From positions 372,001-436,000 of the forward strand of contig NZ_JAAGWD010000001.1 of the NCBI RefSeq assembly GCF_010686685.1: 64,000 bases of DNA. The letters are read 5' to 3'. A program made the position numbers and the translations under genes. This document shows positions 2,068 to 57,272 of this stretch, one piece after another. The number at the start of each line of letters is the position of its first letter. Within the stretch, counting starts at the first letter, position 1. Origin of the DNA: Pontibacter burrus. Its GTDB lineage: Bacteria > Bacteroidota > Bacteroidia > Cytophagales > Hymenobacteraceae. The notes under the pieces were generated by a model that did no database searches, was not told where the DNA came from, and saw only the letters and a program-made list of their open reading frames with translations.

Positions 2068-5000
2068 ATGGCACGTTTCTACGCTCACCCTTATAGTGCT
2101 CTACTTATAAGAACGCTGCTGATAAAATTAATATTGACACTAATTGTTGTTTTGCAGGTACAAGGGCAGTCAGCGCCTACAATTTCTGGCTTTTCTCCAG
2201 TTTCTGGAAAAGTTGGTGATGAGATTATTATACAGGGTTCGGGTTTTCTGACTGCTAATATGGTTTATGTGGGTAGCGAGTCTACCTTGGATTTTACCAT
2301 CGTTAGCGATAGTCAGATCAAAGTAAATGTACCAGCATCTGCTTCTACCGGCAGAATTCAGGTACACAATAGCTTCGGGGCCAGGTCAAGTACAACAAAC
2401 TACACAGTAACAAGTGCTCCAATTATAAGTTCTATAAGTCCAACCACTGGTCCAGTAGGCACTGAAGTAACAATATCCGGCTCTAAGTTTACAGGTGTAG
2501 CTTCTATTAGTATTGCAGGAGGCTCTGTTACAGATTTTATAGTAATTAGTGATACTGAAATTAAAGCCGTAATATCGGAAACAGCATATGGAGGAGTTGC
2601 TCGCGTAACTGCAAACCATGGTTCAGCAACCAGTGCTCAAAACTTTGAAGTCACAGACTTGCCTACTGTAACTAATTTTACTCCCCCTTCAGGGCCTGTG
2701 GGTACAGCAGTTCGAATTTATGGTACCAAGTTTAATAATGCTACTTCAATTAATATAGCAGGCGGTACTACTACAGATTTTACTATTGTTAATGACACGG
2801 AGATAAGAGTTAAAGTACCAGCTAATGCTATTGGTGGGACAGTGCGCGTTTATACGAATACAGGTACAGGCATTAGCTCTTCCAGCTTCACTGTAAATGG
2901 TACTCCCTCCTTAACATCTTTTACTCCCGCCTCTGCGCGTGCAGGGGCAGAAGTTACAATTAATGGTTCCGGATTTACAACTGCAGATAGAGTTTATTTT
3001 GGCAGCGGCTCTATTACAGATTTTACAATAGTTAATGATTTTCAAATAAAAGCTATAGTACCTAATACTGCAACAACAGGTAAGGTTCAGGTCTATACAT
3101 CACAGGGACGTGTGACAAGCATATACAATTTTGCTGTTGAAGGAGCTCCTGTTATCAGCTCATTCTCTCCTACCTCTGGTCCAGTTGGTACAGTTGTTAC
3201 AATAAGAGGACGTAATTTTAATGATGCATCCACTGTTCTTATAGGTAGCGCTAGTATAACTAACTTTACAATTGTAAGCGATTCAGAAATACAGGTAGTT
3301 GTTCCATCAGTAGCTTCCTCTGGTATAGTTAGGGTATATTCAAATAGCGGTCGCGCACTAAGTTCGGGTCAATTTACGCTTGATAATGCACCTGTTATTT
3401 CTACATTTACCCCTACATCCGGTCCAACTGGTACCGAGATCACCATCACAGGGGAGAACTTTACGGGCACAAATTTAATTTATGTGGGCAGCGGTTCAAC
3501 GACCAACTTTACAGTCGTAAGTGATACGCAGTTAAAAGTGATGGTGCCCGCTACAGCAACAACCGGGAAACTGATTGTGCGCACAGCTACGGGCCAGGTA
3601 ACAAGCAAAGAGACCTTTACCCTGACGGGCGCTCCGGAAATCCATTCCTTTACCCCTGCCGCTGGCCCGGTCAATACCACTGTAACGATAAAAGGCATCA
3701 ACTTTACAGGCGCTACATTGGTGTACTTTGGCAGTGGCACAACAACGAACTTTACAGTGGTTAGCGATACAGAAATTAAGGTTGTGGTGCCTACTACCGC
3801 AGCTACAGGAATAATAAGAGTTTATACACCTAGTGGAAGGGCTAACTCATCTACTAACTTTACATTAACCGGAGCCCCTGTTATTTCTACATTTACCCCT
3901 ACGTCCGGTCCAACTGGTACCGAGATCACCATCACAGGGGAGAACTTTACGGGCACAAATTTAATTTATGTGGGCAGCGGTTCAACGACCAACTTTACAG
4001 TCGTAAGTGATACGCAGTTAAAAGTGATGGTGCCCGCTACAGCAACAACCGGGAAACTGATTGTGCGCACAGCTACGGGCCAGGTAACAAGCAAAGAGAC
4101 CTTTACCCTGACGGGCGCTCCGGAAATCCATTCCTTTACCCCTGCCGCTGGCCCGGTCAATACCACTGTAACGATAAAAGGCATCAACTTTACAGGCGCT
4201 ACATTGGTGTACTTTGGCAGTGGCACAACAACGAACTTTACAGTGGTTAGCGATACAGAAATTAAGGCAGTAGTACCTGCTTTAGCTTCTACGGGAATAG
4301 TGCAGGTGCGCACGCCAAATGGTAGAGCAAACTCTTCTGGTTACTTTACCGTGTCAGGAGCACCTGCTATCACTTCTTTTACCCCTATAAGTGGTCCTGT
4401 AGGCACCGAGATCATTATTACAGGGGAGAATTTCACGGGAACCAATAGGGTTTACGTCGGCAGTGGAAATACTACAACTGGTTTCACTGTCGTAAGTGAT
4501 ACACAGCTAAAAGTGATAGTGCCAGCTACGGCTAGTAATGGAAGCTTGATTGTTCGTACAGCAAATGGCCAAGTAACAAGTACTGTAACGTATAAGTTAT
4601 CTCCAGCTTACCTTTCAACCACAAAACCTGAAGTCACCTTCAAACTTGGGCAGGCAGCTACAGAAGAATATAATGTGGATGGCTTAGGTCTCAAAAATGG
4701 AGAGTCAGTAACTATAAATGTTGCAGCAAATAGCCCTTTTGAGATATCAACTAATGCTGGGTCTGGTTTTGGGAAATCTGTTACGCTAAATAATGTTGTT
4801 AATCACAGATTAGTCCCAACTGCCATTTATGTAAAATATACTCCGGACGAGGCGAACACTACAACCGCAGCCGAGATAGTGCATGTGCAGGGAACAACTG
4901 CGGAAAGAAAAATAAGAGTTGAAGCCATAACGCCTCTTCCCGTAGAACTTAAATCCTTTACAGCAAAGCTTATCAATGGTGCCATCCATTTAGATTGGAG

Positions 5001-5496
5001 TACAGCTTCTGAGAAAGATAACTCGCACTTTGATATTGAGATGTCGAGTGGGAATGCGAATAACTATAGAAAAGTGGCCAGGGTTGATAGTAAAGTTGGT
5101 ACAAGTTCTTTAACTACCCATTACAGCTACACAATTAACTATAGTGGCAATGGCCAAACAGAGTACTATAGACTGAAGCAAGTGGATATAGATGGTACTG
5201 CTACATATAGCAGACCAGTGGCTATAAGACCAGTAATGGCTACTAAGCCAACGCAGGTTGCACCAAACCCGATCACAACAGATTCTAAAATTTACCTGAC
5301 AGCACAGCAAAACGGCATAGCTCTTATTAAAGTAAGCTCTATCCGTGGGAAGCAGATTTATGTTGAGCAAGTACAAGTACAGGTTGGGGAGAACGCGCTA
5401 CCTTTAAGTAAATACAATAATCTGATGTCAGGTATTTATATTGTAACTATAGAACTTGATGGTAAACAGGAGTTCTTTAGAATTATGAAGCATTGA
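2068..5496 (+). CDS. secreted IPT/TIG-repeat protein with T9SS C-terminal sorting module
   Basis: 1142 residues. The signal peptide is residues 1-34 (hydrophobic LLIKLILTLIVVLQVQG, cleavage probably near GQ-SA). Ten tandem IPT/TIG (Ig-like) repeats of about 81 residues follow, each starting like APxIxSFxPxSGPVGTxVTIxG (residues ~37-850). Then come a ~105-residue domain beginning STTKPEVTFKLG, a fibronectin-like module (LPVELKSFTAK...TASEKDNSHFDIE...YYRLKQVDIDGT) and a C-terminal sorting domain (VAPNPITTDSKIYL...SGIYIVTIELDG). The last two are typical of T9SS cargo, so the protein is exported and probably anchored at the cell surface as an adhesin-like stalk. Repeats 6-7 and 8-9 are almost identical in DNA. 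The gene is poor in the AACTATA motif that fills neighbouring genes. Confidence 0.9.
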   Translation: MARFYAHPYSALLIRTLLIKLILTLIVVLQVQGQSAPTISGFSPVSGKVGDEIIIQGSGFLTANMVYVGSESTLDFTIVSDSQIKVNVPASASTGRIQVHNSFGARSSTTNYTVTSAPIISSISPTTGPVGTEVTISGSKFTGVASISIAGGSVTDFIVISDTEIKAVISETAYGGVARVTANHGSATSAQNFEVTDLPTVTNFTPPSGPVGTAVRIYGTKFNNATSINIAGGTTTDFTIVNDTEIRVKVPANAIGGTVRVYTNTGTGISSSSFTVNGTPSLTSFTPASARAGAEVTINGSGFTTADRVYFGSGSITDFTIVNDFQIKAIVPNTATTGKVQVYTSQGRVTSIYNFAVEGAPVISSFSPTSGPVGTVVTIRGRNFNDASTVLIGSASITNFTIVSDSEIQVVVPSVASSGIVRVYSNSGRALSSGQFTLDNAPVISTFTPTSGPTGTEITITGENFTGTNLIYVGSGSTTNFTVVSDTQLKVMVPATATTGKLIVRTATGQVTSKETFTLTGAPEIHSFTPAAGPVNTTVTIKGINFTGATLVYFGSGTTTNFTVVSDTEIKVVVPTTAATGIIRVYTPSGRANSSTNFTLTGAPVISTFTPTSGPTGTEITITGENFTGTNLIYVGSGSTTNFTVVSDTQLKVMVPATATTGKLIVRTATGQVTSKETFTLTGAPEIHSFTPAAGPVNTTVTIKGINFTGATLVYFGSGTTTNFTVVSDTEIKAVVPALASTGIVQVRTPNGRANSSGYFTVSGAPAITSFTPISGPVGTEIIITGENFTGTNRVYVGSGNTTTGFTVVSDTQLKVIVPATASNGSLIVRTANGQVTSTVTYKLSPAYLSTTKPEVTFKLGQAATEEYNVDGLGLKNGESVTINVAANSPFEISTNAGSGFGKSVTLNNVVNHRLVPTAIYVKYTPDEANTTTAAEIVHVQGTTAERKIRVEAITPLPVELKSFTAKLINGAIHLDWSTASEKDNSHFDIEMSSGNANNYRKVARVDSKVGTSSLTTHYSYTINYSGNGQTEYYRLKQVDIDGTATYSRPVAIRPVMATKPTQVAPNPITTDSKIYLTAQQNGIALIKVSSIRGKQIYVEQVQVQVGENALPLSKYNNLMSGIYIVTIELDGKQEFFRIMKH
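3391..3781 (+). repeat. 391-bp internal duplication, copy 1 (TIG repeats 6-7)
   Basis: Read against 3877-4267, the two copies (offset 486 bp, exactly 162 codons) differ at one base only (3416 A, 3902 G). The DNA after each copy (3782-3876 and 4268-4362) has diverged although it encodes the same kind of repeat. Confidence 0.95.
3877..4267 (+). repeat. 391-bp internal duplication, copy 2 (TIG repeats 8-9)
   Basis: Partner of 3391-3781 with a single mismatch. The copies keep the reading frame and encode the same two TIG domains, which suggests recent duplication or gene conversion. Confidence 0.95.
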
Positions 5497-10183: not shown

Positions 10184-10993
10184 ATGCAATACGACCCGAT
10201 AAAGCGGGTGCTGGGCGATGTTTTTAACAAAACGCCTTTCCTGCGTCGTGTATTTTTTAACTTACTGGACCTGTTGCTACTGCGAACCTGGCATGTGCAC
10301 AAAGAACTGCGGCAGTGGGCTGCAAAACGCCGTGGACAGGAGCATTGCATTTTAGATGCTGGTGCCGGCTTCGGGCAGTACACGTACCATCTGTCCGGAA
10401 TGAGCCCGAAGTGGAACATACTGGCGGTAGATGTAAAAGAAGAACAGGTTTCAGATAATAACCAGTTCATGCGTGCACTTGGACGACAGAACGTGCAATT
10501 CAAAATTGCTGACCTCGTCCATTTCCGTCAGCCTGATAGCTATGACCTTATTCTTTCAGTGGATGTGATGGAGCACATTCTGGAAGATGTGGAAGTGTTC
10601 GAGAACTTTCATGCATCGTTGCGTAAAGGTGGAATGCTTGTTATCTCGACCCCGTCAGACCAGGGTGGCTCTGATGTGCATGGCGACGACGAAACATCTT
10701 TTATTGAGGAACACGTACGCGACGGATACAACATAAACGAGATACAGGAGAAACTACGCAGTGCGGGTTTTAGCAAAATAGATGCACGCTACTCGTATGG
10801 CAAGCCCGGGCAAATCTCCTGGCGACTGTCTATGAAGTACCCGATGCTGATGCTGAATACTTCCAAACTGTTCTTTATCGTGCTACCGTTTTATTACCTG
10901 CTTACCTTCCCGTTCAGCCTTGTACTAAACTGGATGGATGTAAACAACCACCATAAATCAGGTACCGGGTTAATTGTAAAAGCCTGGAAGTAA
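10184..10993 (+). CDS. class I SAM-dependent methyltransferase with hydrophobic C-terminal segment
   Basis: 269 residues. The SAM-binding motif I is ILDAGAGFGQYT (~60-71), with an acidic residue after the second strand (AVDVKEE) and the post-I region YDLILSVDVMEHI. A hydrophobic stretch near 225-250 (LFFIVLPFYYLLTFPFSLVL) suggests membrane association. The UbiE/COQ5-like core does not reveal the substrate. It lies between rbfA and a LolC/E-like permease gene. Confidence 0.8.
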   Translation: MQYDPIKRVLGDVFNKTPFLRRVFFNLLDLLLLRTWHVHKELRQWAAKRRGQEHCILDAGAGFGQYTYHLSGMSPKWNILAVDVKEEQVSDNNQFMRALGRQNVQFKIADLVHFRQPDSYDLILSVDVMEHILEDVEVFENFHASLRKGGMLVISTPSDQGGSDVHGDDETSFIEEHVRDGYNINEIQEKLRSAGFSKIDARYSYGKPGQISWRLSMKYPMLMLNTSKLFFIVLPFYYLLTFPFSLVLNWMDVNNHHKSGTGLIVKAWK

Positions 10994-11096
10994 TTGATTG
11001 TTAATTGTTAAATTGTTGATTGCTGTTTTAGTATTAGCTATAGTTCGGTCTAACATAAAACAGAGAATGATGAACAATCAGCAATAAAAGCTAAAA

Positions 11097-12320
11097 ATGA
11101 ACGTCCCTTTTCTCATAGCAAAGCGGTACTTCTTCTCTAAAAAGAAGCGGAACATCATCAGCATTATTTCCAATATTGCGATGATAGGCGTAGCTGTGGG
11201 TTCTATGGCGCTCATTATTGTTTTATCTGTATTCAACGGCCTGGAAGACCTGATACGGAAGATTTACTCCAGCTTCGATCCGGACCTGAAGATCTCTATA
11301 GTTGAGGGGAAAGCATTTGAGACAGATACGGAGTTTATGAACCGCATTCGTAAGATGCCGGGAGTAGCTGTAGTTTCTGAAGTGATAGAAGATAATGCCT
11401 TACTGCGCTACAACGACCGGCAAATGGTCGTTAAGATGAAAGGTGTAAGTGAGAACTTCTTCCAGCAAAACGATATTGATACTTCAGTGGTGGAGGGTAG
11501 CCACCAGCTGATTCATAACGACAACTACTATGCGCTTGTAGGCCGTGGCGTACAATACCAGCTCTCGATTAAAACGGGCAGCCAGTTTGTGCCGATGCAA
11601 TTCCTGTATCCGCGCAACACCAAGTTCAACCCTATGAACCCAGAAGGTGCCTTTAACAGTTTGCCTATACTTCCGGGAGGTGTTTTTGCAATTGAGCGAC
11701 AGTATGACGATGCCTATGTGTTTGTGCCGCTCAACTATGCAGCCGAACTAATGGAATACGGCCGGAAACGTACAGCCCTTGAAATAAAGGTAGCGGAAGG
11801 CTATCGTATTGAACAGGTAAAGCGCTCGCTGCAGGAGTTGCTTGGGCCAAAGTTCAGGGTACAGAACAGCGACGAACAGCATACCAGCCTTTTGCGTGCT
11901 GTAAAAGTTGAGAAGCTGTTTGTATTCGTAACATTTGCCTTTATTCTTTTTATCGCTTCGCTTAATATTTTCTTCTCCCTCTCGATGCTGGTGATAGACA
12001 AGAAGAAAGACATTGCCATACTTGCCTCGATGGGCGCAACAGCTACAACTATAAGGAATATCTTTCTATTTGAAGGTGCGCTTGTCGCGTTTATCGGCGC
12101 AGCTTATGGGTTATCGCTGGGGATGCTGGTATGTAACCTGCAGCAAACCTTTGGCCTGGTAAGCATGGGCATGGCCACATCCCTGATCGAGGCATATCCC
12201 GTTAAAATGGAGATAGAAGATTTTATCCTCACAGGTGTGGCCATTATCGTCATCACGCTGCTTGTTTCTATCAGGCCGGCTAACAAGGCAGCTGCCATGT
12301 CTGTTACCGAAAATATATAA
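11097..12320 (+). CDS. ABC transporter permease, LolC/LolE (FtsX/MacB) type
   Basis: 407 residues. There is one N-terminal membrane helix after a basic start (FSKKKRNIISIISNIAMIGVAVG), a periplasmic core domain of ~230 residues, then three helices carrying the FtsX fold (FVTFAFILFIASLNIFFSLSMLVI, KKKDIAILASMGA). This layout is that of the lipoprotein-releasing LolCE permeases. No ATPase gene is adjacent. The association with rbfA is common in Bacteroidota. The leader contains C-poor then G-poor tracts. Confidence 0.85.
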   Translation: MNVPFLIAKRYFFSKKKRNIISIISNIAMIGVAVGSMALIIVLSVFNGLEDLIRKIYSSFDPDLKISIVEGKAFETDTEFMNRIRKMPGVAVVSEVIEDNALLRYNDRQMVVKMKGVSENFFQQNDIDTSVVEGSHQLIHNDNYYALVGRGVQYQLSIKTGSQFVPMQFLYPRNTKFNPMNPEGAFNSLPILPGGVFAIERQYDDAYVFVPLNYAAELMEYGRKRTALEIKVAEGYRIEQVKRSLQELLGPKFRVQNSDEQHTSLLRAVKVEKLFVFVTFAFILFIASLNIFFSLSMLVIDKKKDIAILASMGATATTIRNIFLFEGALVAFIGAAYGLSLGMLVCNLQQTFGLVSMGMATSLIEAYPVKMEIEDFILTGVAIIVITLLVSIRPANKAAAMSVTENI

Positions 12321-15643: not shown

Positions 15644-15689
15644 GTATGTTTTGAATAAAAATCAACAACCATCAACTAACAATCAAACC

Positions 15690-21247: not shown

Positions 21248-21384
21248 TTGCGGATGCATAATTGTTTAATGGTTAAATGGGTAAATTGCTGAACTGTTTA
21301 ACTATTTGTGAGTATAACGACTCGCAGTGATCAGCTTAACTACACTCTTTTCTAAAGCGGATAACGAATAACCAACAATCAAAC

Positions 21385-22761
21385 TTGAAATACCTGCTCG
21401 CCATACTGCCACTGCTCTGCCTGCTGTCTATAGTTGGTTGCGACCCTAAGGATGAAGTGCTGACTACAGATCCGGGTGCGGTGCTTCAATTTTCGCAGGA
21501 TACGGTGTTGTTTGATACGGTGTTTGTTTCGCGGGGCAGCGTGACCAAACGCCTGAAAGTATATAACCGCAACGACAAAGCTGTACGCATCAGCAGCATT
21601 ACACTGGCTGGCGCCAACTCTTCGGCCTATAACCTGATCATCAACGGACAGGAAACACCAGTGCGTAATAACCTGGAACTGCGTGGACAGGACAGCCTCT
21701 ACATTCTGGTAAAGGTCAACATAAACCCCAATGACACGAATCTGCCTTTTCTTGTAGCAGACTCTATCTTATTTGATACAAACGGGAAGCGGCAAACTAT
21801 AAAACTGGTGGCATATGGCCAGAATGCGGTCTTTCACCGGAAGAAAACGATTGGCACCACAACCTGGACGAGCAATTTACCGCATGTGTTGTTAGATACT
21901 GTTTTACTGGATAAGGGAGCTACGCTAACTATAGAACCAGGTACCCGTGTTTATGCAGGCAGTAAGGGAGTGCTGTTAGTAAACGGAACTTTGAACGTAA
22001 ACGGCACCCCAGAGCAGCGAGTAACTTTTAGCGGTTACCGGCGCGAAGCAGAATATGTGCGTGCACCAGGCCAGTGGGAGGGCATCCGGATACTTGCCCA
22101 AAGCAGCAATAACTCTATCAAGTATACTGATATCCTGAATACGACTTTTGGGTTAAGGATCGGTAATCCCGGGCAAGGTGGTACACTGGTAGAAGGGTGT
22201 GTTATCGGGCATGCTTTTCTGGATGGTTTAGTTGCCTTTACTTCGGATGTACGTGTCGTGAATACCCTGATCTATAACTGCGGTCAGTTTGGTTTCGGCG
22301 GTTTAGGTGGCGGCAACTATGAGGTGCTCTACTCCACTATTGTAAACTATAATAACACGCTGCCACGGCCAACCCCCGCTTTCGTGATAACAGACTACAT
22401 ACCGGACACTGAGATACGGGATAAGCCAACCAGCTTGCGGCTCATCAATACTATAGTTTATTCAGATGATTTCGGTGCGAAGGACGAATTGCTTCTGGAT
22501 GCGGGAACTGGCGCAAGCCTGGAGATAACCAATAACCTTTTGCGCTCTGCCAGATACACCAATCTGCTGAGCACGAATAGTAACATACTGAACCAAGAGC
22601 CAAAGTTTAAAGAGCCCGGCAAGTATAATTTCCAGCTCGATACGTTGTCGCCGGCAAGTGGTGCAGCCCGCAGGTTGCAAACTATAGACCAGGACCTGAA
22701 AGGCAAATTGCGAAGCATTACAAACCCCGATATAGGTGCCTACGAACGAACTATAGACTGA
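21385..22761 (+). CDS. secreted lipoprotein with right-handed beta-helix
   Basis: 458 residues starting at TTG 21385, directly after a leader ending in CAACAATCAAAC. The lipobox is LSIVGC with Cys19, so it is outer-membrane anchored. An Ig-like N-terminal domain (~30-150) precedes a beta-helix core with short turns (TLTIEPGTRVYAGSKGVLLV, GTLNVNGTPEQRVTFSG, IKYTDILNTTFGLRIG), ending in the common pattern DIGAYE. Proteins of this build are surface polysaccharide-binding or adhesive in Bacteroidota. No catalytic site is evident, and the function is unknown. Confidence 0.8.
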   Translation: MKYLLAILPLLCLLSIVGCDPKDEVLTTDPGAVLQFSQDTVLFDTVFVSRGSVTKRLKVYNRNDKAVRISSITLAGANSSAYNLIINGQETPVRNNLELRGQDSLYILVKVNINPNDTNLPFLVADSILFDTNGKRQTIKLVAYGQNAVFHRKKTIGTTTWTSNLPHVLLDTVLLDKGATLTIEPGTRVYAGSKGVLLVNGTLNVNGTPEQRVTFSGYRREAEYVRAPGQWEGIRILAQSSNNSIKYTDILNTTFGLRIGNPGQGGTLVEGCVIGHAFLDGLVAFTSDVRVVNTLIYNCGQFGFGGLGGGNYEVLYSTIVNYNNTLPRPTPAFVITDYIPDTEIRDKPTSLRLINTIVYSDDFGAKDELLLDAGTGASLEITNNLLRSARYTNLLSTNSNILNQEPKFKEPGKYNFQLDTLSPASGAARRLQTIDQDLKGKLRSITNPDIGAYERTID

Positions 22762-22763
22762 TC

Positions 22764-22950
22764 TATAGTTAGAAAGTTAGAAAAGTATAAGTTAAAAAGT
22801 AAAGGCCTGCAGCGTGCATGGTTCTTTGAGCTTTCTGATTTAGATTTCAGAACATACAATTTGTTAGATCTTAAACTATAAAAACTTTCTAACCTTCTAA
22901 CTTCTCAACTCTCAAACTCCTAAACTTCCCAACTCCCAAACTATAAAACT
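22764..22950. repeat. intergenic element with C-free left arm and G-free right arm
   Basis: 22764-22805 contains no C (AGTTAGAAAGTTAGAAAAG-type units), and 22868-22950 contains no G (CTAACCTTCTAACTTCTC-type units). The arms are degenerate reverse complements and directly abut the stop of the upstream lipoprotein gene and the ATG of yjbQ. Similar arms occur at 10986, 15654, 21250, 52126 and 57083. Confidence 0.6.
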
Positions 22951-23370
22951 ATGTGGTTCCAGAAAGAGATACGTTTGCCTGCTGTTCAGCGGGGTTTTCA
23001 CCTGATTACAGATCTGGTCGAGTCGCAGTTGCCGGAGCTGGAAGAGATAAGCATGGGCATGGCACATATCTTTATCAAACATACCTCGGCCAGCTTAACT
23101 ATAAGCGAGAACGCAGACCCGACCGTACGACAGGATTTTGAAAGCCATTTTAATAAGATGGTGCCTGAAAACGCGCCTTACTACCAACACACTTCCGAAG
23201 GTCCGGACGATATGCCTGCACATCTGAAAGCGGCTATACTAGGCAGCTCGGTAACTATACCGATTACAAACGGAAGGTTTAACCTGGGCACCTGGCAGGG
23301 CCTTTACCTGTGCGAGCACCGCAACCATGCTTCCAAGCGCTGGATTGTAGTAACTCTGACGGGCAACTAA
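22951..23370 (+). CDS. yjbQ: YjbQ family protein (UPF0047)
   Basis: 139 residues with the family signatures HIFIKHTSASLTISENADPTV, HTSEGPDDMPAHLKAAILG and GTWQGLYLCEHR, where conserved His/Asp/Glu residues form the proposed active site. E. coli YjbQ has weak thiamin-phosphate synthase activity. Its physiological role is still uncertain. The stop codon is part of a 14-bp palindrome shared with the convergent protease gene. Confidence 0.9.
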   Translation: MWFQKEIRLPAVQRGFHLITDLVESQLPELEEISMGMAHIFIKHTSASLTISENADPTVRQDFESHFNKMVPENAPYYQHTSEGPDDMPAHLKAAILGSSVTIPITNGRFNLGTWQGLYLCEHRNHASKRWIVVTLTGN

Positions 23371-23378
23371 ACTATAGT

Positions 23379-24875
23379 TTACCTGATGATGGTAATCTTT
23401 TTGGTCTGAATGCCTTCGGTGCCGCTTACCCGCAGGAAATAAACACCACTCGGCAGGCCTGCTGTATTTAGTTCGGCCACACGGGTAGTTACTTCCTCGC
23501 TCAGCACTACCTGGCCTAAACGGTTTATAAGTTCCACGTGACGCAGCGTTACGGCGGCAGGTTGCTCAATTATAACATAACCTGATGCCGGAACAGGGTA
23601 AACGGTCAGGTCGTTTGGCGTAACTTCAATATACTGATCGCGGGTTTCGGTGCTGCTTAAATTGCCTCTGGTTATGGTTAGCGAAACTTTATACTTACCC
23701 GGTTTAAAATAGCTTACCGTAGGGTGCTGCTCTGTAGAGGTAGAAGGCGTGCCACCTTCAAATTCCCAAAGCCAGTTTGTGGGCCTCACTCCTACTGATG
23801 TATCCTTAAATGTAACTTTACGATCGCGGCGCACAAGTGTATCAGTAGCAGCTTCAAAATCGGCAAGCAACCCGCCGCTACACGCTGGCGAGAGCAGGAT
23901 TCTGGACCTGGAAGAACTCAGCACGGCCTGCATAAATTCAATCTGGCCATTAGTGAACAGGTTCATACAGGCATCGTAACTATAGTCCATGTAGTTCTGC
24001 CACATGTTGCCATAGGGACCATTGTTGCAAGATAATTCAATCCCGGAAGGGCATTCGTACGTCGGGCCACGCTGGTTAGGCGTATCATCGATGCCATCCG
24101 AATCGGAGCAGGTTGCGTTACCATCGCCCCAGATGTGGCGCAGGCCAAGCCAATGCCCGATTTCGTGGGTGGCAGTGCGGCCTTTATTATATTGTGTGCC
24201 GGCTTTGTTGTAAGGAGTAGTGCCTACTGCCTGAAAATGGAGCACAACGCCATCGTTCTGAGGGCTGATACGTGCACCCGGAAAAGTAGCCCAGCCGAGC
24301 ACATTTTCCTCAATATTGCCAATCCATATGTTCAGGTACTGGTCCCGGTCCCAGGCTGCAGCTCCGCCTTCTTCAGCGCGTTTAATGCGGTTATTTGACG
24401 GGTTGAAGCTTCTGGTTGTGGTAAATGTGCGGGTAATACCGTTAGTTGGCAGGCCATCCGGGCCGATAGATGCAAGACAAAACTCTATACCTGCATCACC
24501 TGCTAAAGCTTCAAAATGTACCGGCGTATTTATTTTATCTGCATTGGTTCTCCTGAAATCAGCGTTGAGTACGGCTAACTGCGAAAGGATCTGCTCATCT
24601 GAGATATTTTGTTCCGGTCTGTTATAAAGCACATGAAAGACAACCGGAATAGAGATGATTTCCGCGCTTCGCATGGCTTTGCCTCGGCTCTTCTGCTGGC
24701 TGATGTAAAGTTGCGCTGCATCGCGGGCTTTCTGCTGCTGTAGTTTAGTGCCCGGTTCCAGGCGCTCCAGCGTCTCCTGGTACTGGTCGGTAGCGCAAAC
24801 CCGGTATTTGCCTGGCTGGCCATAGGCAGGCGCAAGCAGTAGTAGCGCGAAGCTTAAAAGAGCAGAGAAGCGCAT
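23379..24875 (-). CDS. M43 family zinc metalloprotease with PKD domain and T9SS sorting domain
   Basis: 498 residues. The signal peptide is 1-19 (LLSFALLLLAPAYG). The catalytic domain has HEIGHWLGLRH (237-247; zinc His 237, 241, 247 and general base Glu238) and the Met-turn NYMDYS (~294-298) of pappalysin/cytophagalysin enzymes. A PKD domain follows at ~350-415 (VTFKDTS...WEFEGGTPSTSTEQHPTVSYFKPGKYKVSL). The C-terminus (TVYPVPASGYVIIEQ...GVYFLRVSG) is a T9SS sorting domain. It is exported and probably degrades extracellular protein. Confidence 0.92.
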   Translation of the reverse strand: MRFSALLSFALLLLAPAYGQPGKYRVCATDQYQETLERLEPGTKLQQQKARDAAQLYISQQKSRGKAMRSAEIISIPVVFHVLYNRPEQNISDEQILSQLAVLNADFRRTNADKINTPVHFEALAGDAGIEFCLASIGPDGLPTNGITRTFTTTRSFNPSNNRIKRAEEGGAAAWDRDQYLNIWIGNIEENVLGWATFPGARISPQNDGVVLHFQAVGTTPYNKAGTQYNKGRTATHEIGHWLGLRHIWGDGNATCSDSDGIDDTPNQRGPTYECPSGIELSCNNGPYGNMWQNYMDYSYDACMNLFTNGQIEFMQAVLSSSRSRILLSPACSGGLLADFEAATDTLVRRDRKVTFKDTSVGVRPTNWLWEFEGGTPSTSTEQHPTVSYFKPGKYKVSLTITRGNLSSTETRDQYIEVTPNDLTVYPVPASGYVIIEQPAAVTLRHVELINRLGQVVLSEEVTTRVAELNTAGLPSGVYFLRVSGTEGIQTKKITIIR

Positions 24876-31387: not shown

Positions 31388-31692
31388 CACCAACTATAGC
31401 GCACATTGCTGTAGACCGATCCGGGAGCATTAAATGCCAGTATAAGGTGGTGTACCTACCTTTCTCTGAAAACCCAAATAGTGCAGGCTTATAGCAGGGT
31501 TTGAAATTGATACTATAAGAACCGGTTACAACTATAGTTGAGAAGCTATAACTATAGCTCTTGAACTATAGTTGCTGAGATAAACGCTGACAGCATAACG
31601 AATTAAATGCGTGCAAAACCTTTTCAGATCTGGTATCAGAGCTTTGAATGCTTTAACTGGAAAAATTTTAGAGTAGTGGGAAGTAGCGCATG
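31388..31692. other. intergenic region with a cluster of AACTATAG motifs
   Basis: 305 bp between the ZIP gene and the convergent 127-residue gene. AACTATAG occurs at 31392, 31530, 31550 and 31564, and two of these (31530, 31564) are complete AACTATAGTT palindromes within 44 bp. No gene, terminator hairpin or RNA was recognised. Confidence 0.6.
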
Positions 31693-51936: not shown

Positions 51937-51940
51937 TTCT

Positions 51941-52112
51941 AACCACCCCTGCCCCTCCTTAGCTAAGGAGGGGAGCTTTTACCTCCATTTTATCCTGTCA
52001 TCCTGAAAGGGTCTTGAGTGAAGGGGGTAAGCAGTGGCTATAAAATTTGTGCATTAACTATAGTAAAGACAGAAAATTCCCCGCCTTGGATAAGGAGGGG
52101 TTAGGGGTGGTT
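51941..52112. mobile_element. MITE-like element with 40-bp imperfect terminal inverted repeats
   Basis: Left end 51941-51980 and right end 52073-52112 are inverted copies (about 33 of 40 identical, both beginning AACCACCCCT when read inward). Each contains a CCCCTCCTTA/AAGG(A/C)GGGG hairpin. The left one is a perfect 22-bp palindrome (51952-51973) followed by AGCTTTT and may end the metH transcript. The interior has TGTCATCCT, also found at 15576. No transposase is present. Confidence 0.6.
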
Positions 52113-52173
52113 GGACCTAGTGTTGCTAACCCAACCATTTAACAATTAAACCATCTAACAATTTACCTATAAA

Positions 52174-53130
52174 TTGAAAGTAACAGACCACTTCAGGAAT
52201 GCTAACGGCAAAACGCTGTTCACTTTTGAAATACTACCACCGCTGAAGGGCGAAAACATGAAGACCCTGTTCAGCCACATCGACCCTTTAATGGAGTTTA
52301 ATCCGCCGTTTATAGATGTGACCTATCACCGCGAAGAGTATGTGTACAAGCAGCGGGAGAACGGCCTGTTGGAGAAACGCACGACACGTAAGCGCCCAGG
52401 CACGGTAGGTATTTGCGCGGCTATCCAGAACAACTATAAAGTAGACACGGTGCCTCACCTGATCTGCGGGGGCTTTAACAAAGAGGAAACCGAGAATGCG
52501 CTGATAGATCTACACTTTCTGGGCATTGATAACGTGCTGGTACTGCGTGGCGATTGCGTAAAAAGCGAGCAACGCTTTGTGCCGGAACCAGGCGGACATA
52601 ATTATGCAACAGAGCTTATCGGGCAGGTGGTGGATATGAACTGCGGACGCTACCTGGATGATGAACAGACCTTCCATAACCCAACGGATTTCTGTATTGG
52701 CGTCGCTGGGTACCCGGAGAAGCACTTCGAAGCACCAAACCATAAATCGGACCTGCGTTGGCTGAAAAAGAAGGTTGAGTTGGGCGCGGAGTACATTGTA
52801 ACGCAGATGTTCTTTGATAACCAGAAATATTTTGATTTTGTGAAACGCTGCCGTGAGGAAGGGATTACTGTGCCGATCATTCCGGGCCTGAAGCCAATGA
52901 CCACAAAATCGCAGCTGACCTTACTGCCAAGCCTGTTCCACATCGAAATACCATGTGAGCTGGCTGATGCCATTGAAGAATGCTCGGATAACAAAGCCGC
53001 AGCACAAGTAGGCGTAGAATGGGCTATCAAACAATCGAAAGAGCTAATGGACTTTGGCGTGCCGTGTCTGCACTACTACTCTATGGGCAAATCAGAATCT
53101 GTCAGGAAAGTGGCAGAGGCTTTATTTTAG
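52174..53130 (+). CDS. metF: methylenetetrahydrofolate reductase
   Basis: 318 residues from TTG 52174, which ends a 50-base G-free leader. The FAD-binding barrel has the start FEILPPLKGENMKTLF, DVTYHREE, NVLVLRGD and GGHNYATELI, with later AEYIVTQMFFDNQKYF and PGLKPM. It makes 5-methyl-THF, the substrate of the adjacent MetH. A TTG start within such leaders also occurs at 21385. Confidence 0.96.
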   Translation: MKVTDHFRNANGKTLFTFEILPPLKGENMKTLFSHIDPLMEFNPPFIDVTYHREEYVYKQRENGLLEKRTTRKRPGTVGICAAIQNNYKVDTVPHLICGGFNKEETENALIDLHFLGIDNVLVLRGDCVKSEQRFVPEPGGHNYATELIGQVVDMNCGRYLDDEQTFHNPTDFCIGVAGYPEKHFEAPNHKSDLRWLKKKVELGAEYIVTQMFFDNQKYFDFVKRCREEGITVPIIPGLKPMTTKSQLTLLPSLFHIEIPCELADAIEECSDNKAAAQVGVEWAIKQSKELMDFGVPCLHYYSMGKSESVRKVAEALF

Positions 53131-57082: not shown

Positions 57083-57272
57083 GGTTAAATTGCTAAATTG
57101 TTGGCTTGTTAAATTGTTGATGATCTGGAAACTATAATTCTCGGTTCTTAAAGTATAGTTGAACCCATTACCTTTGTTCTTAAACTATAGCTCCCTTTAG
57201 TATGACCAATTTTGATGACCACCTATAGTTTAACAATTTAGCCATCAAACAATTCAACTAGTAATAACACAA

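Follow-up and report, generated by a model that had tools for sequence, protein, structure and literature searches.

Paired C-free and G-free short tandem-repeat arms at gene borders in Pontibacter

The short tandemly repeated repetitive sequences (STRR) of cyanobacteria are heptamer arrays of fixed words that lie in spacers, and we know of no gene-edge polarity in them. The nearest described system that we found is that of the TAACTGA heptamer direct repeats, which occur in Beggiatoaceae, some Cyanobacteria and Bacteroidetes and for which the author suggests translational regulation (PMC4679880). Translation in Bacteroidetes is initiated without Shine-Dalgarno (SD) pairing, with AUG under-represented around starts, and mRNA structure and an A at position -3 both affect how well Flavobacterium johnsoniae initiates (PMC6847099). 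Searches of the open literature on the arm words, on Bacteroidetes, on Pontibacter and on Flavobacteria/Cytophaga repeats returned, among the matches listed, no description of the paired-arm layout reported here.

Our window comprised 64,000 nt of Pontibacter burrus contig NZ_JAAGWD010000001.1 (genome 4.31 Mb, 29 contigs). In the spacer before yjbQ, the initial annotation had described 42 bases without C followed by 83 bases without G up to the ATG, and both extents are exact. The C-free stop-side arm (22764-22805, + strand, 42 nt; units GTTAGAAA / AGTTAAAA) begins 2 nt past the stop codon of the upstream gene (21385-22761, +), the final codons and stop of which match in relatives by eye. The G-free start-side arm (22868-22950, +, 83 nt; units AACTTTCT, AACTTCTC, AACTCTCA, AACTCCCA and others) abuts the ATG at 22951 of the downstream yjbQ-family gene (PF01894; 22951-23370, +), and in this arm Tandem Repeats Finder reported period 8 at 22907-22942 and period 24 (3 x 8) at 22899-22950. 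The interior separating the two arms spans 22806-22867 (+); matches of this spacer to other spacers in 464 kb of the own genome were confined to the arms, and by eye the interior had no evident likeness to the interiors of close relatives. The two arms are also inverted-repeat partners, with 22768-22791 and 22870-22893 being 79% complementary.

Similar tracts had been listed elsewhere in the window, and their extents and placements held to varying degrees. The tract proposed as a C-free arm after a stop at 10986-11022 is a C-free run of 10985-11022 (+, TTGTTAAATTG type) that spans and follows the stop of 10184-10993, and a G-poor partner arm with two G inside (11073-11096, +, AACAATCAGCAAT and on) abuts the ATG at 11097. 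The G-free arm expected before a start at 52126-52173 (+, TTTAACAATTAAACCATCTAACAATTT) was likewise recovered; it precedes the TTG at 52174, and the G-free run itself reaches 52175. At 15654-15689 (+) the tract is G-free as described, but whether it stands before a start depends on start choice: ATG 15636 precedes it, and the tract lies inside the open reading frame if that ATG is the start. Two further spans are poor in the named base but not free of it over their full length. The first, 21250-21300, contains a C-free arm at 21258-21288 (+), 68 nt past the stop and, by eye, behind a terminator-like hairpin; the second, 57225-57270 (+), is a G-poor partner arm before ATG 57273. Finally, the arm at 57083-57123 (+) is C-poor and takes part in inverted repeats of the window, but it does not follow a stop as had been supposed, because the gene to its left is on the minus strand (start 57007 or 57082); the arm thus lies upstream of that gene, at a start edge and not a stop edge.

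Other repeats occur in the same DNA. An inverted G/C-rich repeat (51938-51979 and 52073-52115; CCACCCCTGCCCCTCCTTAGCTAAGGAGGGG and its partner) adjoins the G-free arm at 52126, and C-rich words like the CCACCCCTGCCCCTCCTTAGCTAAGGAGGGG repeat are over-represented in spacers. Within the 1142-aa open reading frame at 2068-5496, a 486-nt unit is repeated 1.8-2.3 times at 3388-4529 (99% matches over 3391-4267). Copies of a HIP1-like iterated palindrome, AACTATAGTT, number 1300 in the own genome; four close relatives have 1087-1477, G012 has 232, G045 has 330, G049 has 104 and the other 42 of the 50 Pontibacter genomes have at most 28 each; its instances in the window include 22763-22770 (CTATAGTT), 23370-23379 (AACTATAGTT) and 31529-31582. 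About half of the AACTATAG copies in 464 kb of the own genome lie inside genes (415/823). G012, which is nested among the palindrome-rich species, has AAGTATA frequently instead (141 per 60 kb vs 38 in the 64-kb window), and P. ramchanderi has GCTATACCTG-type words in place of the palindrome. Spacers of P. populi (G017), such as those at 379617-380650 and 302946-303799 in its joined 400 kb, contain long dispersed repeats with 500-600-nt matches among spacers.

To place the yjbQ element in a wider setting, we compared 464 kb of the own genome (the window plus 400 kb) with 400 kb of P. ramchanderi (G030) and 400 kb of P. populi, 1.26 Mb in total. The comparison also took in the yjbQ neighbourhood (40-60 kb) of seven relatives and 400 kb from G028, a sister of P. 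populi. Genes were called with our own hexamer script, and some of the starts may be wrong. Plain tracts were in modest excess: runs of at least 28 nt in own-genome spacers numbered 89 (C-free) and 56 (G-free) vs 48.8 and 29.7 in dinucleotide shuffles, and across the three genomes such runs were ~1.7 to 2.5 times as frequent as in shuffles. Periodic arrays, not plain tracts, are the strong signal. Specifically, for both the own genome and P. populi the autocorrelation of spacer tracts peaked at lags of 8, 16 and 24, which together with the periods at yjbQ bears out the degenerate units of about 8 nt first proposed there; the peaks of P. ramchanderi were less clean (lags 7, 8, 14 and 16), and those of gene tracts fell on multiples of 3. 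Chains in which four or more equal 4-mers follow one another every 7-8 nt numbered 50, 36 and 50 in the spacers of the three genomes, a count on both strands in which each chain counts twice, vs 0, 2 and 0 at spacings of 5-6 nt, 0, 0 and 0 at 9-10 nt and 4, 4 and 6 at 10-11 nt. Inside genes, counted on one strand, there were 1, 1 and 0. The chief chain words were AACT, AACA/CAAT and AATT, and there were TCACTCAT-type arms too.

Detection of arms with at least three units, G-free or C-free, gave 34, 26 and 24 arms in the spacers of the three genomes; genes yielded 7, 1 and 8, and any one control spacing 2-6. The spacer and gene counts correspond to 0.36-0.47 arms/kb in spacers vs 0.003-0.024/kb in genes. 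Given the control-spacing and gene counts, perhaps a tenth or more of the detected arms are noise. As direct repeats of 6-9 nt that form intergenic arrays of at least three units, the arms are intergenic short tandem repeats. One array form, AACTHHHH three times followed by AACT, has 114 copies in the whole own genome (0 for the reversed control). A search of 50 Pontibacter genomes found it in 45, at 0-380 copies per genome, and among 296 Bacteroidota sampled from the whole phylum, the own genome being one of them, 25 had it. Four 200-kb samples of other Bacteroidota also had 7-8-nt chains (22, 18, 20 and 35 vs 0-7 at other spacings), some of them with words that carry both G and C. The same samples yielded 4, 4, 4 and 8 arms with 1-6 at control spacings, and since these counts resemble each other, the polarity of those arms (15 consistent, 5 inverse) is not evidence.

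The proposed layout, in which a C-poor arm follows one gene and a G-poor arm leads into the next, recurs well beyond yjbQ. Among the 84 arms of the three genomes, 74 were C-free nearer the left spacer edge or G-free nearer the right edge, and 10 were inverse (p 3e-13), so that random placement relative to starts, named beforehand as an outcome that would count against the layout, did not occur; for arms of at least four units the ratio was 36:3. By type of edge, consistent and inverse arms numbered 33:0 at tandem starts, 16:5 at divergent starts, 19:4 at tandem stops and 6:1 at convergent stops. A start edge was nearest for 54 arms, 49 of these in one orientation, and a stop edge for 30. Consistent arms often lay within 10 nt of the gene (25/25 of those nearest a stop, 25/49 of those nearest a start), and only about 3-6% of gene edges carried an array. 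Polarity was also found in tracts that are not arrays: G-free tracts that were 24 nt or longer and lay no more than 50 nt from a start were consistent in 92 cases and inverse in 25 (p 3e-10), and near stops non-array tracts were unpolarised (32:39). Because the bias at starts persists without arrays, it belongs to leaders in general, whereas C exclusion after stops is limited to arrays. Composition profiles showed a general but modest depletion of G before starts (G 0.135, 0.154 and 0.114 in the last 15 nt) and no general C depletion after stops in the three genomes. Plain tracts were ordered less cleanly than arrays: in spacers with exactly one plain tract of each kind, C-free preceded G-free in 13, 10 and 16 cases and followed it in 0, 5 and 2.

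Polarity at both starts and stops would also fit a gate for Rho, in which RNA that enters a gene from either end presents a C-containing, G-free tract that loads Rho, and antisense or untranslated RNA is terminated. Rho is encoded in the genome, the array polarity (74:10) has the expected sense, and rut sites are unstructured, G-poor stretches of RNA that contain more C than G, extend over about 78 nt and have a cytosine every 11-13 nt (PMC6407284). The 83-nt yjbQ arm fits that length and composition. Nonetheless, nearly all of the other arms fall short of 78 nt, their units are spaced at 7-8 nt and not at the 11-13 nt used in rut prediction (PMC6407284), and unlike rut sites they stand in sense orientation ahead of starts and in antisense orientation behind stops. 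The non-array tracts at stops lack polarity, and convergent spacers, where antisense entry matters most, carried consistent arrays no more often (6/256) than tandem stop edges (19/550). We therefore consider a Rho gate very improbable.

The two kinds of arm are associated. Both occurred in 14 of 834 spacers vs 1.9 expected if independent, and the C-free arm came first in 14/14. A G-free partner accompanied 16 of the 19 stop-side arrays of tandem spacers (strong in 10, weak in 6); for comparison, among 534 spacers of 80-600 nt that had no array, 56 showed a weak G-free tract in their right half. Of the 33 start-side arrays of tandem spacers, 10 stood alone. Genus-wide, opposite-strand word pairs at most 600 bp apart had the C-free word first in 11:0 cases for TCACTCATTCACTCA and 8:0 for AACTxxxx, among the matches listed and judged by eye. 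Such pairing bears on the view that the arrays are neutral, that is, that slippage makes 7-8-nt arrays anywhere and that they persist just where they fall outside coding and promoter sequence in a harmless orientation, G-rich leaders and C-rich Rho-loading trailers being filtered out and no positive role being needed. The rarity of arrays in genes, their sporadic presence at the same spacer, their fast turnover and their lineage-specific words are all consistent with this. Neutral arrays alone do not explain the excess of two-arm spacers, or why words that hold both G and C were found in only 4/50, 0/36 and 0/50 chains, and we regard this explanation as somewhat unlikely.

Two further suggestions of the initial annotation, that the G-poor arm is an unstructured leader and that the pair forms a long RNA hairpin, concern folding. 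The yjbQ leader with the first codons folded no better than shuffles (z +0.65), so the unstructured part of the first suggestion fits at yjbQ, as does the 92:25 bias toward G-free tracts before starts. The whole yjbQ spacer as RNA folded somewhat better than shuffles (z -2.15, 3/200), and edge-to-edge complementarity of at least 16 was found in 9 of 395 spacers of 140-600 nt vs ~0.3% across spacers; by eye, about five of the nine involve array arms and the remaining four or so involve other repeats. A hairpin is thus visible at yjbQ, but it is not the general rule because no more than 6 of the 14 array pairs draw both arms from one word family and 8 do not. This weighs against a hairpin across the spacer, as RNA or cruciform DNA, being the functional form (terminator, RNA-processing site or structural clamp), as do the separate terminator-like hairpins that adjoin arms by eye and the lack of co-divergence of arms between sister species. 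Such a role appears highly doubtful. Searched against the Rfam covariance models, 22700-23000 matched no family at E values up to 1. Over the 40 nt that precede the start, start-like codons averaged 0.33, 0.20 and 0.18 with an arm (n 9, 5 and 11) vs 1.15, 1.17 and 0.97 without, a contrast that follows partly from the definition of an arm. The C-free arm was also considered as a multi-frame stop-codon trap, a candidate that was rejected as the leading idea, with stop triplets slightly more numerous than in shuffled arms (163 vs 139, 142 vs 109 and 129 vs 120).

Relatives provide a further view of the element. Absence from relatives, the other outcome named as adverse, did not occur: the layout was seen in relatives at yjbQ and at other spacers, although both arms at yjbQ are not present in every species. 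Arm-bearing Pontibacter yjbQ spacers are 58-364 nt long (590 in one) with arms at the ends, whereas the six yjbQ loci compared from Rufibacter, Sabulibacter and Adhaeribacter have 9-16-nt spacers without arms, as do, at 11-19 nt, some tree-nested Pontibacter (L008, L009 and L092). This contrast in length would be expected if a MITE-like mobile element, with the arms as terminal inverted repeats, had been inserted as a block between stop and start. However, a shared mobile core was looked for and rejected: no core was common to the arm spacers (464, 400 and 400 kb), the few pairs that share 30-100 nt include other dispersed repeats, and several interiors hold such repeats. Of the earlier idea that the arms are remains of a repeat family, the part that stands is the presence of 7-8-nt tandem arrays in several word families, and the part that does not is a common core. 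Inverted copies are clear at yjbQ, but the arms of 8 of 14 pairs belong to different families, and between P. populi and G028 the yjbQ interiors look unrelated despite similar start-side arms. Insertion of a mobile element seems quite unlikely. The G028 yjbQ spacer (L085) also has, by eye, a 58-codon open frame between the arms that was not seen in the other relatives compared.

At yjbQ the layout is largely kept among relatives and the words differ in both arms. AACTxxxx arms are found in the own genome, G038, P. fetidus, P. populi and G028, and TCACTCAT or TTCA arms in G012, P. vulgaris, P. ruber, G045 (weak) and many others. In a tree of 21 genes and eight species (all forks 99-100), G012 falls between AACTxxxx species, and therefore at least two word changes, in both arms, have occurred. 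Across 29 distinct Pontibacter yjbQ spacers, edge complementarity was 18.6 within spacers vs 12.6 across (336/406 quartets), with a permutation P that is too small because related species are included. The window has five other arm spacers, and the same edge match was absent at the four of them tested (10994, 15446, 21190 and 51937; P 0.16-0.42); of all 27 window spacers tested besides yjbQ, two that are not arm spacers reached P 0.0095 (19813 and 32014). Other window spacers mostly keep the layout while words shift, e.g., from AACAATC-type to ACGAATT-type in G012 at 10994. Because same-place arms in G012, G014 and G032 contain G (words such as ACGAATT, AACGAAT and CACGAAA), G exclusion is not absolute. 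Arm-bearing spacers diverge faster than other spacers: between P. populi and G028 the median identity was 0.77 for arm spacers (n=15) and 0.92 for others (n=184; p 5e-4), and 12 of the 15 fell below length-matched controls. Concerted change of the arms between these sisters was not supported (8 spacers for, 11 against, 4 ties), although the comparison of the 29 yjbQ spacers does favour it.

The position, period and polarity of the arms, the fast turnover of their words and the same layout in relatives are direct observations. Judging from sequence comparison, the reading that we favour, plausible though tentative, is a gene-border element of two short tandem-repeat arrays, in which the G-free start-side arm would serve as an unstructured, decoy-free leader for SD-less initiation and the stop-side arm would be its inverted partner. 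We assign the primary role to the leader arm, with the stop-side arm as its partner, because polarity without arrays is found only at starts, and because 16 of 19 stop-side arrays are partnered and 10 of 33 start-side arrays stand alone. A leader without G excludes G-C and G-U pairs and has no AUG, GUG or UUG, and the start-side arm may be kept G-free for this reason. A ribosome that does not use SD pairing would then meet an unstructured tract in which the first possible start codon is the real one. Selection at the start side would act on composition only and not on sequence, and thus slippage and substitution could change the words, with the layout kept while words turn over. Counting against this reading are the G-containing arms of some relatives and the small share of gene edges (about 3-6%) that have an array.

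With regard to the C-free stop-side arm, no role of its own has been demonstrated; it is a putative inverted partner that might derive from the same stock, e.g., by template switching between the two ends of the spacer. Stop-side arrays in convergent spacers (6 consistent) argue against this, having no leader to partner. Inverted copying is also not shown as general, because the arms of sisters do not co-diverge, other window arm spacers lack the yjbQ signal and 8 of 14 pairs differ in words. A bolder possibility, which we hold to be unlikely, is a genus-wide positional grammar without fixed words, with G-free arrays before starts and C-free arrays after stops, in which active copying replaces the vocabulary at both spacer ends and gives SD-less bacteria leaders free of start codons. 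If true, it would amount to a class of cis element whose defining marks are alphabet, period and polarity instead of sequence. The arrays themselves suggest an element whose position, alphabet and polarity are kept while its sequence is not, of a kind that alignment-based searches would miss. They bear on how Bacteroidota choose start codons without SD pairing, as leaders that lack G, and with it every common start codon and nearly all pairing, would be a simple way to mark a start.

Compared with known systems, the Pontibacter element resembles the TAACTGA repeats in being built of short (7-nt in TAACTGA) intergenic direct repeats, which in some species of that system are mostly forward and a few nt before the start codon; some TAACTGA sets are reversed near a stop, and the phylogeny is patchy (PMC4679880). 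TAACTGA is, however, one fixed word that contains G, and the available part of that report describes no paired C-free and G-free layout (PMC4679880). The unit itself was not matched by the Pontibacter units (AACTxxxx, AACAATx(x), TCACTCAT and AATTxxx), and in Pontibacter several degenerate 7-8-nt word families swap at one spacer, with G (or C) mostly excluded. The SD-less, Kozak-like initiation regions of Bacteroidetes are alike in that initiation is tuned by the composition of the leader and by its lack of structure, with AUG under-represented close to starts, and they differ in having position-specific adenines within about 15 nt (PMC6847099), where Pontibacter has G-free tandem arrays of 25-85 nt. 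The Pontibacter element therefore belongs to the intergenic short tandem repeats, and it is distinct among them by a mostly excluded base, by the paired polarity of its arms and by its replaceable words.
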